Assembly (NCBI RefSeq): GCF_003325455.1
Contig: NZ_CP025198.1
Location: forward strand, 3,162,001 to 3,226,000
Reading direction: 5' to 3'
DNA from: Acidipropionibacterium virtanenii
GTDB lineage: Bacteria > Actinomycetota > Actinomycetes > Propionibacteriales > Propionibacteriaceae
DNA length: 64,000 bases
Positions 26 to 33,828 of this stretch are shown here, one piece after another (within the stretch, counting starts at the first letter, position 1; every line of letters begins with the position of its first letter). Under the pieces are notes generated by a model that had not been told where the DNA came from, made no database searches, and saw nothing but the letters and a program-made list of their open reading frames with translations. The translations under genes and the position numbers were made by a program.

Positions 26-55
26 TTGACGTGTCAGATGTTAGCACGTGATAAT
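26..55 (+). promoter_or_regulatory. Promoter with palindromic operator
   Basis: TTGACG (26-31) and GATAAT (50-55), 18 bp apart, form a good sigma-70-type promoter for the sugar porter gene that starts at 92. TTAGCACGTGATAA (41-54) is a dyad with only one mismatched pair and a central CACGTG, and it overlaps the -10. A dimeric repressor bound there would block transcription. Which regulator binds is not evident. Confidence 0.6.
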
Positions 56-23774: not shown

Positions 23775-23807
23775 TTCTCCCCTTGCCCCGTCCGGCATTT
23801 TTTCTCT

Positions 23808-23854
23808 CCAGAACCCGGATCCCGACGCCAGAGTCGGTGATCCCGGGCTTCTGG
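23808..23854. terminator. Hairpin between convergent genes
   Basis: CCAGAACCCGGATC (from 23808) pairs, with small bulges, with GATCCCGGGCTTCTGG (23839-23854), and an inner CGAC/GTCG stem extends it. It lies between the convergent DUF5107-TPR and MocR genes. A T-run (cattttttct) precedes rather than follows it on the + strand, so it is at best an atypical bidirectional terminator. Confidence 0.4.
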
Positions 23855-23869
23855 GGAGCGAAAATGTCG

Positions 23870-25234
23870 TCAGATCCGCCCCAGCGCCTCCGCCAGCATC
23901 TGAGGATCGTGCCACAGGGGCAGTCTCAGCATCGTCCGCTGGCCGTCCTGGGGCGAGAAACTGGGGCCCGGCGCCAGCCTCACCTTCGCCCGTTTCGCCG
24001 GCTCGGCCAGGGCCAGGACGTCTCCACCGGTGTCGATCCACAGCCCGGTGCCGCCCCGGATCGGCTCCCACCGCCACCCCGGGAAGATCTCCCTGACCAC
24101 CTCCTGGGTGCTACCGAGCCGTGACGCCAGCATCTGCCGCCGCTCCCGGCGCGCCTCCACAGCATGCCGCAGGAGCTGGGTCGCCAGCAGCTGGCTCATC
24201 ACCGAGGTCGCCAGATCCTGAGCCTTGCGCAGTTCCAGGATCTGGCGAATCCGGCTCGCCCCGGCCCTCGCCCAACCGACCCTCAACCCACCCCAGAACA
24301 GTTTCGACAGAGATCCGATCATCACCAGGAGATCATCGCCGACGTGCCCGGCCAGCGTCCGCGCGACGCCCGGGCCTCTTGTCAGGTCGTAGGAGCAGCA
24401 GTCCTCGATCACGGCTGTCCCGGCCCCGTTCACCAGCTCCCCCACCTCGGCCCGAGTGCCGCGGGGCATCGTCGTCCCCGTCGGATTGTGGATGCCGGTC
24501 TGGCAGTACAGCACGGCAGGTCTGCGGACAAGAGCGTGGCCGAGCAGGTCGACGTCGATCCCCTCGCTCCTGAGCGGCACTCCCTGGACCCGGGCCCCGA
24601 GAGTGCGCAGTGCCTCCAACCCGCCGCGATAGGTCGGGTCCTCGACGATGGCCAGGTCCCCCGGCGAGACCAGGGTGCGCATCGCCAGGTAGGTGGCCTG
24701 CTGGGCGCCGCTGGTGATGAGGATCTGCTGGGGAACGGTGGGGATGCCGTCGCGGGTCAACCGGTCGGCGATCGCCTGGCGCAGCACCGGCAGCCCGGCA
24801 GGGAAGTAGCCGTCGGTCTCCAGGTAGTCGTCCAGTCCCGAGACGCCGGTGGCGAGTTCCCGTCTGGCCACCTCGGAGGCGGGCAGTGCCCCGGTCGAGA
24901 GGTCGATGACGCCGGGGGCCGAATGGGTGAAGGAGAACAGTCGCCCGTTGGTCGCGACCGCCGCCCGCCCCGATCGCACTCGCGTCCCCGATCCGACCGT
25001 CGACGCCAGGTAGCCGCGGGCCTCGAGCTCCGCGAACGCCGAGGCCACCGTGCTGCGTGAGACGCCCAGCGCCTTCGCGCAGTCGCGCTGGGCGGGCAGC
25101 ACACTGCCCGCCGGGGCGAAACCGGCGTCGATGAGTTCCAGCAGCCCCGCAGCCAGCGCATCGGGCAGCAGCCTTCCGGGCCGGGCCCAGTCGCCGAGCA
25201 TCCGGCTGAGCTCGGCGGCATCCATCTTCGGCAT
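23870..25234 (-). CDS. MocR-family regulator (GntR HTH + aminotransferase fold)
   Basis: The 454-aa protein fuses a GntR-type winged helix (residues about 15-75; KALGVSRSTVASAFAELEARGYL) to a PLP-dependent class I aminotransferase domain. The PLP lysine is in GSLSKLFWGGLRVGW, with CQTGIHNPTG upstream. MocR proteins usually sense PLP or an amino-group metabolite and regulate a divergent gene. Here that gene encodes the Tm-1-like protein at 25344. ATG 25234 is preferred over a TTG at 25261. Repeats in the intergenic region may be its operator. Confidence 0.87.
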   Translation of the reverse strand: MPKMDAAELSRMLGDWARPGRLLPDALAAGLLELIDAGFAPAGSVLPAQRDCAKALGVSRSTVASAFAELEARGYLASTVGSGTRVRSGRAAVATNGRLFSFTHSAPGVIDLSTGALPASEVARRELATGVSGLDDYLETDGYFPAGLPVLRQAIADRLTRDGIPTVPQQILITSGAQQATYLAMRTLVSPGDLAIVEDPTYRGGLEALRTLGARVQGVPLRSEGIDVDLLGHALVRRPAVLYCQTGIHNPTGTTMPRGTRAEVGELVNGAGTAVIEDCCSYDLTRGPGVARTLAGHVGDDLLVMIGSLSKLFWGGLRVGWARAGASRIRQILELRKAQDLATSVMSQLLATQLLRHAVEARRERRQMLASRLGSTQEVVREIFPGWRWEPIRGGTGLWIDTGGDVLALAEPAKRAKVRLAPGPSFSPQDGQRTMLRLPLWHDPQMLAEALGRI

Positions 25235-31387: not shown

Positions 31388-32566
31388 TCAGCCCCGCCTC
31401 GGCGGGCGGCGCATCAGCAGCGCCAGCGCCGCAGTGGCGACCACCAGGAAGGCCCCGCCGATCGCGACGGCCACCGGAATGCCCCACAGCGCGCCCAGAA
31501 ACGCCAGCGTGAGACCGTTACCGGTGCGCAGTCCGGACCCGAACATCGAGTAGACGCCGACGACCCGGCCGCGCTCGGCCACCGGTGCGCGCAGCTGGAC
31601 GATGGCCTGGCTCACCGTGTTGGAGGCGAGGTTGGCGAACCCGCCGATCGCCAGAGCCACCAGGGCGATCGCATAGAAGTGGGTGGTGGCCACGATGAAC
31701 GTGGTCAGCCCGAACAGGATCGAGGAGACCACCACCACCCTGACCGTCGGGCGGATCCGTCCCGTCGCCTCCAGGAGGAAACCACCCAGCACACCGCCCA
31801 CCCCGCCGGCGAACAAGAGTGTGCCGTAGCCCAGGCCCCGGGACCCGACCGACAGGTTTCCGGTCGCGAAATCCGGCATCGAGACCTGCAGGGAACCGCC
31901 GATCGCCAGGGCGCCGAGGCCGGCGAGCATGATCATGCCGAAGAGCACGCGATCATGGGCGACGGTGCCCAGCACGCTGAAGGTCTCGCGGAGGCCCGGG
32001 CGATGATCCATGAAGTACCCGCTGCGCAGATGCCCGGTCTGCGGGGTGCGCAGCAGCAGGAGGGTCATCGGCAGGTACAGCGCGATATTGGCGAAGATGC
32101 CGTAGGTGGGCCCGAGGATCAGCATCAGTGCCGAGCCGACGACGGGCCCGCACAGCACGCCGATACTGCGGAAGGTGGCGTTCATGCGAACGGCGCCGGG
32201 CAGATCCTCGGGCTCGGCGAAGTCATGGAGCATCAGCTGCTCGGCCGGCCCCCACAGCGCGCCGGCGCATCCGTGCAGCACGAGCAGGACGCAGGCCTCC
32301 CACATCTGGAGGGAGTCGGTGAGAAACAGGACGCCCCAGCTGAAGGAGACGAACATGAACAGCAGCTGCGAGACCTGGATGAGGCGCCGGCAGTCGTAGC
32401 GCTCGGCCAGCGCCCCGAAGGGCACGCCGAGCAGCAGGAAGGGCAGCCAGTGACTGACCACCTCGAAACCGACCAGGGCGGGCGAGTGGAAGGCCTGCCA
32501 CAGCATCCAGTAGGTGATGACGTGTTCGACGTTGTCGCCCATCATGGACAGCCCGGCGGTCACCAT
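31388..32566 (-). CDS. MFS transporter, MFS_3/enterobactin-exporter-like
   Basis: The 392-aa membrane protein has about 11-12 hydrophobic segments and loop motifs such as GALAERYDCRRLIQVSQ. It resembles MFS_3 efflux proteins; no substrate can be inferred. The N-terminus is uncertain: the frame stays open upstream of ATG 32566 (LAPRRFGALRQRDSRRYMVTAG), which looks like a genuine cytoplasmic N-terminal arm, but no ATG, GTG or TTG is visible there. It lies 106 bp from the start of manA and may be monocistronic. Confidence 0.83.
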   Translation of the reverse strand: MVTAGLSMMGDNVEHVITYWMLWQAFHSPALVGFEVVSHWLPFLLLGVPFGALAERYDCRRLIQVSQLLFMFVSFSWGVLFLTDSLQMWEACVLLVLHGCAGALWGPAEQLMLHDFAEPEDLPGAVRMNATFRSIGVLCGPVVGSALMLILGPTYGIFANIALYLPMTLLLLRTPQTGHLRSGYFMDHRPGLRETFSVLGTVAHDRVLFGMIMLAGLGALAIGGSLQVSMPDFATGNLSVGSRGLGYGTLLFAGGVGGVLGGFLLEATGRIRPTVRVVVVSSILFGLTTFIVATTHFYAIALVALAIGGFANLASNTVSQAIVQLRAPVAERGRVVGVYSMFGSGLRTGNGLTLAFLGALWGIPVAVAIGGAFLVVATAALALLMRRPPRRG

Positions 32567-32787
32567 GTACCGGCGCGAGTCCCTCTGACGCAGTGCGCCG
32601 AAACGGCGGGGCGCCAGGGGCCCGGGGGTGCCGTCCGGGGGCGACGCCGTGGGGTCTGAGCTGGCCGTGATCTGTCTCCGTCCTCGATGACAACATCACG
32701 ATCCTGCCTCACCGCAGTGGTGGATCGGCGACCGGTCCATGCCCTGGGCGCTCTCCCGGCCCCTTCACCCACCTCGCCACTACGTTT

Positions 32788-32871
32788 CGGGTGCGCATAT
32801 CACTAGCTCGAGGCCCGAAAACGACAGAAACTTCCCGATAAGGGCGCTCGAGCTAGTGATATGCGCACCCG
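32788..32871. repeat. 84-bp element with 25-bp perfect inverted repeats
   Basis: Arms 32788-32812 and 32847-32871 are exact complements (25 of 25; CGGGTGCGCATATCACTAGC... and its reverse). The 34-nt loop can extend the stem through GCCC/GGGC with one bulged base. It is intergenic, between the start of the MFS gene and the 3' end of the nitrilase gene. No U-tract follows on either strand. A REP-like or mini-transposable palindromic element is likely. Confidence 0.8.
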
Positions 32872-32948
32872 TCATGGCATGCCCTCCACCGGAGCTGCCG
32901 GTGGTGTCGTCGATCTGCACAGGCGAGGCAACTGTGCATCGCGCGCTC

Positions 32949-33758
32949 TCAGATCCTCCGGTTCTCCAGGACCGGGATCGCGGCCCGGATCGGGACCACC
33001 CCGTCGGGGTTGATGTCTATCACCCGGAACTCCACGCCGTCGCCGAGCTCGCACAGCACCCACCCGTCCGGGGCGACCGCCATGCTGTGGCCGATGCCGG
33101 TCGGGGCCCCCGACGGCTCCTGGCCGATGGTCGCAGGGTCTCCCTGACCGACGGCGACGATGAAGCAGGTGGAGTCCAGAGCGCGGGCGCGGGTGAGCAG
33201 ACGCCACTGGTCGAGCTTGTCGGCGCGCTGCTCGTCGGTGGTTCCGGCCCCCCAGGATGCGGGCAGGATGATCACCTTGGCGCCGGCGTCAGCCAGGCGG
33301 ACGAAGAGGTTCGGGAATCGGACGTCGTAGCAGACCGCCAGGCCCACCGGTACACCTCCGATCCGGCAGACCGTCGGCTCGGAACCGGGCGTCACAGTGT
33401 CGGACTCGGCGAACCCGAAGGCGTCGAAGAGATGGATCTTGTCGTATGCGGCGAGGATGCCGTCGGGGCCCGCGACCAGCAGGGTGTTGCGAACCCGGCC
33501 ACCATCGCCGGGGGTGAAGATGCCCAGGGCGATGGTGGCGCCGTGCCGGGCGGCGATCTCCTGCACAGCGCTGGCGAAGGGACCGTCGAGGGGCTCGGCG
33601 ACGCCCTTCAGCGAGTGCCCGAAGGCCCGCATCGTCGCCTCGGGAAAGATCACCAGTTCGGCCCCGGCGTCCGCCGCCCGGGCGGTCCGGTCCCGGACGA
33701 TGTCCAGGTTCGCGGCGACGTCGCGTCCCGTGATCACCTGCATGAGAGCTGTCCGCAT
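32949..33758 (-). CDS. Carbon-nitrogen hydrolase (nitrilase superfamily)
   Basis: The 269-aa cytoplasmic amidase-type enzyme has the Glu-Lys-Cys triad: Glu in VIFPEATMRAFG, Lys in AAYDKIHLFDAFG and Cys in GLAVCYDVRFPNLF. The family hydrolyses C-N bonds of amides, omega-amides or deaminated glutathione; LFDAFGFAESDTV resembles the Nit1/Nit2-like branch. ATG 33758 is chosen because GGGAGG lies 5-6 nt upstream; ATG 33776 would add six residues. It is divergent from the M23 protein, with an inverted repeat between them. Confidence 0.87.
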   Translation of the reverse strand: MRTALMQVITGRDVAANLDIVRDRTARAADAGAELVIFPEATMRAFGHSLKGVAEPLDGPFASAVQEIAARHGATIALGIFTPGDGGRVRNTLLVAGPDGILAAYDKIHLFDAFGFAESDTVTPGSEPTVCRIGGVPVGLAVCYDVRFPNLFVRLADAGAKVIILPASWGAGTTDEQRADKLDQWRLLTRARALDSTCFIVAVGQGDPATIGQEPSGAPTGIGHSMAVAPDGWVLCELGDGVEFRVIDINPDGVVPIRAAIPVLENRRI

Positions 33759-33828
33759 CTCGTCCTCCCGACTCATGTGCTCGTCTCGTGTCCATACCGT
33801 ATGGCCATCAGCCTTATGACCCCGAAGG

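Follow-up and report, generated by a model that had tools for sequence, protein, structure and literature searches.

Introduction

A long-standing question is whether the palindromic repeats interspersed in genomes act as parasites or as working parts of the chromosome. The BIMEs of E. coli have been proposed to organize or relax DNA. ERIC/IRU elements, about 127 bp long, are imperfect palindromes over their whole length, lie between genes and have no known transposase. The matS, Noc and SlmA sites are dispersed protein-binding sites that mark domains and are regionally confined. In the parts of the literature drawn on here, Di Nocera et al. 2013 (PMC3733652) describe GTAG- and CGTC-tagged REPs and REP dimers/BIMEs, while in PMC12306157 a row of counts is all that is given for A. 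thoenii, that paper's tool defaulting to palindromes of at most 32 nt with loops of at most 11 nt.

Here we analyzed an inverted repeat in a window of 64,000 nucleotides (the whole stretch of DNA under analysis, G000:C1:3162001-3226000). This repeat is a member of a dispersed ~76-bp palindrome family, found so far in Acidipropionibacterium and undescribed in the parts of PMC12306157, PMC5644110, PMC6920887 and PMC3733652 consulted. Five genomes of this genus were searched: G000, to which the window belongs, its sister species G001, and G002-G004.

As with the REP dimers/BIMEs in the relevant parts of PMC3733652, the family consists of short inverted palindromic pairs that are intergenic, mostly 3' of genes and sometimes in frame within ORFs; homo- and heterodimers, several families per genome and species specificity are also common to both. 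Paired inverted units that are extragenic and present in many copies, as in BIMEs, were found, but the units are not recognizable as REPs. Unlike GTAG/CGTC REPs, in which the tag stands next to a stem-loop unit of 20-40 bp, the consensus arms carry neither tag (by eye). Furthermore, REPs are also found singly, whereas in G000 the family's half-sites are paired in one 60-61 bp register: of 28 matches to the half-site TGCGCATNNNNCTAGC in G000 with at most one mismatch, 26 lie within paired elements by our tally, and the other two lack the family's YR step.

ERIC/IRU elements resemble the family in being imperfect palindromes dispersed between genes with no known transposase. Compared by description, the family differs from them in its length (~76 versus ~127 bp, on which ERIC membership was rejected), its conserved arms, its variable middle and its many arm types. 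With matS, Noc and SlmA sites it shares regional confinement and a dispersed, protein-binding-like character, but it is much longer, bipartite and species-variable, and is found on the origin side instead of the terminus. By the tests made, the family works like a BIME or an ERIC-type interspersed palindrome, and not like a GTAG/CGTC REP, a RAYT-linked REP, an attC site or a terminator.

Results

The copy in the window and its neighbors are as follows.

32788-32871, no strand: palindromic element, 84 bp as modelled, with a 76-bp core at 32792-32867
32788-32812, plus strand: left arm, 25 nt, CGGGTGCGCATATCACTAGCTCGAG, with the conserved half-site TGCGCATATCACTAGCTcGAG
32813-32846, no strand: middle, 34 nt, variable between copies
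32847-32871, minus strand: right arm, exact reverse complement of the left arm
32949-33776, minus strand: CN_hydrolase family gene, upstream, its 3' end facing the element
31388-32566, minus strand: MFS transporter gene, downstream

The initial annotation had described a perfect 25-bp inverted repeat without a U-tract, and both points are borne out: the arms are complementary at 25 of 25 positions around a 34-nt loop, and by eye neither arm of this copy is followed by the T-run that, after a G+C-rich hairpin, marks an intrinsic terminator. Covariance model R1, built from 37 copies including this one, scores it at 78 bits on the plus strand and 74.5 on the minus strand. The element is intergenic, 77 bp past the CN_hydrolase stop and ~220 bp upstream of the MFS gene, as placed by our own gene caller. 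In G001-G004 no element was found close to the nitrilase orthologue, nor is the MFS gene matched at those loci; the window copy is therefore not an ancient fixed site and lies at a synteny break.

A search of the genome and its relatives, with copies counted, gave about 20 places of this arm type in G000, so the element is not single-copy. The earlier suggestion of a dispersed REP/BIME or MITE-like element holds in kind for its REP/BIME part (many copies, mostly intergenic, nearly one genus among the genomes searched); its MITE part is not supported, no transposase-linked copy having been found. A 121-base query had further copies in two of 37 genomes, G000 itself and G001. R1 located 19 places in G000, plus one further weak place, and 23 places in G001 among the matches listed; since 48 strand-matches were counted in G001, about one place exists beyond these 23. 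With 150 candidates scored per genome, R1 matches occurred in all five genomes of the genus, and weak copies elsewhere may be missed. Under stricter filters (23 candidates scored per genome), 6 of 197 genomes of the taxonomic family had matches, the sixth being G083, whose locus is 98.9% identical to that of G001 over 2101 bp, which indicates recent transfer. An exact pattern scan also found a match in the A. thoenii DSM 20276 record. At another pair of loci, L063 (G001:815673) and L077 (G002:C16), ~4 kb around the element are 99.2-99.8% identical, as against 78-84% at other compared G001/G002 loci, and this too points to recent transfer.

Each copy has two inverted ~22-bp arms 60-61 bp apart and a near-constant size, the aligned copies showing arms of the form YGCGCATWTYRCTMGCTGGAGG and a variable middle. 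Arm types differ between species (TGAACATTTCACTCGC.. in G003, TGCGCAGATCACTCCGCAGAC.. in G002, TGMACATTTCACTCGC.. in G004) with element length unchanged, and variant-arm copies are present in all five genomes of the genus. The core pattern TCACTCNC-N(40..48)-GNGAGTGA matches 162 times in G003, 18 in G004, 5 each in G002 and G000, and 3 in G001, while a reversed-pattern control gives 0 in all five. In 20 of 386 other genomes of the order the core pattern occurs 1-3 times, and the reversed control does so in 12; five matches in viral contigs were judged, on a rough estimate, to be chance hits. Of the 162 G003 matches, found over spacings of 40-48, 161 persist with 42-46 bases between the cores. 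Several subfamilies can be told by eye among the G003 matches listed. In G000/G001 the two arms vary independently of each other at the CA/TG step (half-site positions 10-11).

The arms outlast the middle. In 14 orthologous G000/G001 pairs, 552 of 615 arm positions are identical (0.90) versus 301 of 437 in the middle (0.69; Fisher 2.5e-17), and 424 non-orthologous pairs give 0.78 and 0.63, respectively. Homogenization between copies, instead of selection, could mimic part of this conservation. A copy is read in frame within the linker of a multicopper-oxidase-type protein in three species (G000, G001 and G003), each time with the species' own arm type. Cupredoxin/multicopper-oxidase fusion loci with the element as linker were seen at L065 (578-3385), L056 (715-3436) and L108, and the same locus has also passed to another genus (G083).

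In the two complete genomes, G000 and G001, the copies are confined to the origin-proximal part and are intergenic, usually 3' of genes. By our own gene caller, 25 of 42 copies lie between co-directional, 10 between convergent and 4 between divergent genes, with 2 in an ORF and 1 unresolved; in 22 of the 25 co-directional cases the upstream stop is closer to the copy than the next start is. In G003, divergent genes flank 6 of 21 copies. With dnaA at base 424 in G000 and 1,145,935 in G001, the origin half holds all 23 places listed in G001 and 19 of the 20 in G000, where the most distant place lies 0.98 Mb out of 1.72 Mb from the origin. Thinned to one per 20 kb, the counts are 15/16 (p 2.6e-4) and 17/17 (p 7.6e-6); G000 and G001 share sites, and their origin statistics are therefore not independent. 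A broader model, R2, found one place in the 800 kb around the terminus of G000 and G001. E. coli REPs, in the parts of PMC12306157 consulted, show no clear clustering, unlike this family in G000/G001.

The remaining genomes were placed by similarity. In G003, among the matches listed, the dnaA contig has 34 copies in 384 kb, and two others, of 461 and 371 kb, have 5 and 8; these sparse contigs each map ~1.2 Mb from the origin in G000 through one flanking piece, and one of the two does so only via a G004 piece that is nearly identical. From G002-G004 loci, 36 pieces were compared with G000: 30 mapped directly and one more through near-identity, none of them farther than 1.25 Mb from the origin, and the other 5 gave no useful position.

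The origin bias extends to palindromes with unrelated arms. The window itself has a second, degenerate one.

23789-23873, no strand: degenerate ~80-bp palindrome of type CTCTCCAGAACCC..GGGCTTCTGGGGAGCGA, intergenic (R2, E 2.8e-4)

A sequence-blind scan of 704 kb of G000/G001, consisting of the window and blocks chosen around family copies, gave 59 palindromes versus 1 in a triplet-shuffled control, with about a dozen unrelated arm types by eye. Omitting the family from the counts and taking gaps of at least 85 bp, 39 other intergenic palindromes were found for 292 gaps in these origin-side blocks versus 3 for 235 gaps in the 800-kb terminus set (p 5e-8); with coding ones included the numbers are 42 versus 15 (p 4.9e-5), 12 of the 15 terminus palindromes lying within coding sequence. 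With no length preset, inverted repeats of 35-39 bp half-span numbered 28 versus 2, or 21 versus 2 without seven family copies. Terminator-sized repeats (half-span 15-24 bp) had no origin bias (46 in 704 kb, 64 in 800 kb). Origin-proximal confinement thus seems a property of a size class and not of one sequence. Blocks L185-L216 of G000/G001 hold about a dozen additional families of ~76-bp palindromes whose arms are unrelated (CTCCCAACACGCCGTC, CACGCAGCGCCAGAGTTCG and CTTCGGCAGTGAGTTTTCACTTCGGCAG are examples), and by eye several of these share a central GGTATTCCA-like motif.

Discussion

We propose, with a probability of roughly 0.5, that the element belongs to a family of interspersed DNA palindromes that is BIME-like and specific to the genus, and in which every copy forms a single bipartite site whose arms are putatively recognized as DNA. 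The arms, as duplex or as extruded cruciform, would be bound by a protein that has diverged from species to species; the copies would multiply by some copying mechanism and be retained, or no more than tolerated, in the half of the chromosome nearest the origin, and may there contribute to organizing or relaxing the surrounding DNA. Near-constant size, arms that outlast the middle, species-specific arm types and the origin contrast make the parasite-or-part question directly testable here. The contrast between origin and terminus is sharp and common to unrelated arm families, and it occurs in the small genomes of dairy and industrial bacteria.

A bolder extension, which we hold to be rather unlikely, is that Acidipropionibacterium marks its origin-proximal domain with a large number, conceivably hundreds, of bipartite ~76-bp palindromes, which come in many arm types and are read by fast-evolving DNA-binding proteins. 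This would be an origin-side counterpart of matS-type addressing, built from BIME-like repeats. If true, palindrome-reading proteins would organize, relax or segregate the origin domain.

The strongest competitor, less probable than recognition of the arms as DNA but well worth weighing, is that these are purely selfish palindromic repeats (REP-, ERIC- or foldback-like) with no host function. The origin bias would then reflect where insertion or retention is easiest, and the arms would be alike since the copies are young or homogenized. Several observations fit such repeats: at least 161 copies in one species (G003) versus about 20 in another, halves of different types joined in single G003 elements (by eye, among the matches listed), many unrelated arm types side by side, sites just 3' of genes as for REPs in the parts of PMC3733652 used here, and the lack of the window copy in the four other genomes of the genus. 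However, a near-constant size and the 90% versus 69% identity of arms and middle at orthologous loci argue against it, and the near absence from 800 kb around the terminus seems beyond what gene dosage alone would give. Nor was an associated transposase found. Unlike RAYT-linked REPs, the family has no Y1 transposase in four of the five genomes, and a RAYT link was rejected because PF01797 occurs in one genome only, with no R1 element in the 11 kb around that gene; the gene is a lone IS200-like Y1 transposase (Pfam PF01797) at L080 5153-5683 (G001:C1:609 kb). As to a MITE parent transposase with the same terminal repeats, half-sites with at most one mismatch occur in G000 at 60-bp spacing only, and plasmid and phage collections had no match. 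As to target-site duplications, the intergenic flanks of empty sites are too divergent for base-level alignment.

Two other explanations appear improbable. First, the element might be a site for site-specific or palindrome-mediated recombination by which genes are gained or lost, like the attC of integron cassettes. With palindromes plus R2 matches counted as sites, in 3 of the 45 G000/G001 indels that measure 300 bp or more, a site borders the long allele on either side and another is present in the short allele; a rotated-site control averages 0.003 and reaches 3 in 0 of 2000 trials. This control ignores that indel ends and palindromes are both intergenic, and the cassette-like indels at palindromes are therefore a lead only, suggestive at most. 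One of the three cases is flanked by different palindrome types, another has a degenerate second copy, and in 32 of the 45 indels neither end carries a site. A site at one end only was seen in 10 (3.1 expected) and a site in the short allele in 10 (2.65 expected). Moreover, the copies are dispersed and form no arrays, and an integron attC site was rejected because no TIGR02249 integrase exceeded the cut-off in the five genomes, sub-threshold matches occurring in all five but also in 14 of 14 control genomes. L057/L066 is one of the three both-end indels; L051/L058 looks alike and was not scored at both ends. In L202-L203 (G001:C1:310001-350000), at block positions 11-24 kb, seven consecutive alignment gaps at gene boundaries exceed their G000 counterparts by ~90-330 bp in G001, and these gaps hold repeats, tandem units included.

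Second, the element might act as RNA, either as a transcription terminator or as an mRNA-stabilizing 3' hairpin. The preference of co-directional copies for the upstream stop agrees with this, as does a very stable fold: positions 32780-32880 give -63.3 kcal/mol as RNA versus a mean of -27.1 over 200 shuffles (z -11.2; none of the shuffles as good). An RNA stem under selection would be expected to favor G.U, but in 41 copies oriented in the sense direction (41 of the 43 between co-directional genes, one transferred and one duplicated copy being omitted) stem mismatches comprise 57 G.U versus 74 A.C (p 0.16), and thus there is no RNA-stem signature. The missing T-run at the window copy, the copies between divergent G003 genes and the origin bias of the 35-39 bp class, which terminator-sized repeats do not share, also speak against an RNA role, and the copy in frame within the multicopper-oxidase ORF cannot be a terminator. 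The sole Rfam match, to a miRNA family at 23.9 bits versus a gathering score of 200, was taken as chance. The structured RNA suggested by the initial annotation is accordingly unsupported.

For recognition as DNA, the covariation between the halves is neutral. It was no better than shuffle in the first 37-copy alignment; among 41 copies picked for arm-type diversity, 31 of 33 pairs change on both sides, which 0 of 500 shuffles reach. Such strong covariation across diverse copies means that both halves of a copy belong to one subfamily, and it does not separate DNA from RNA. Given the left/right symmetry in G003, G002 and G004, it is possible that the hairpin or cruciform itself has a role. Identity between left and right beyond shuffle is absent in G000 (z 1.4 and 0.5) and weak in G001 (inner z 2.2, outer -1.0), while in G003, in a set that includes one duplicated locus, it reaches z 3.4 (outer) and 5.4 (inner); for the outer arms it is z 4.0 in G002, with one foreign-type copy in the set, and z 2.9 in the six copies of G004.
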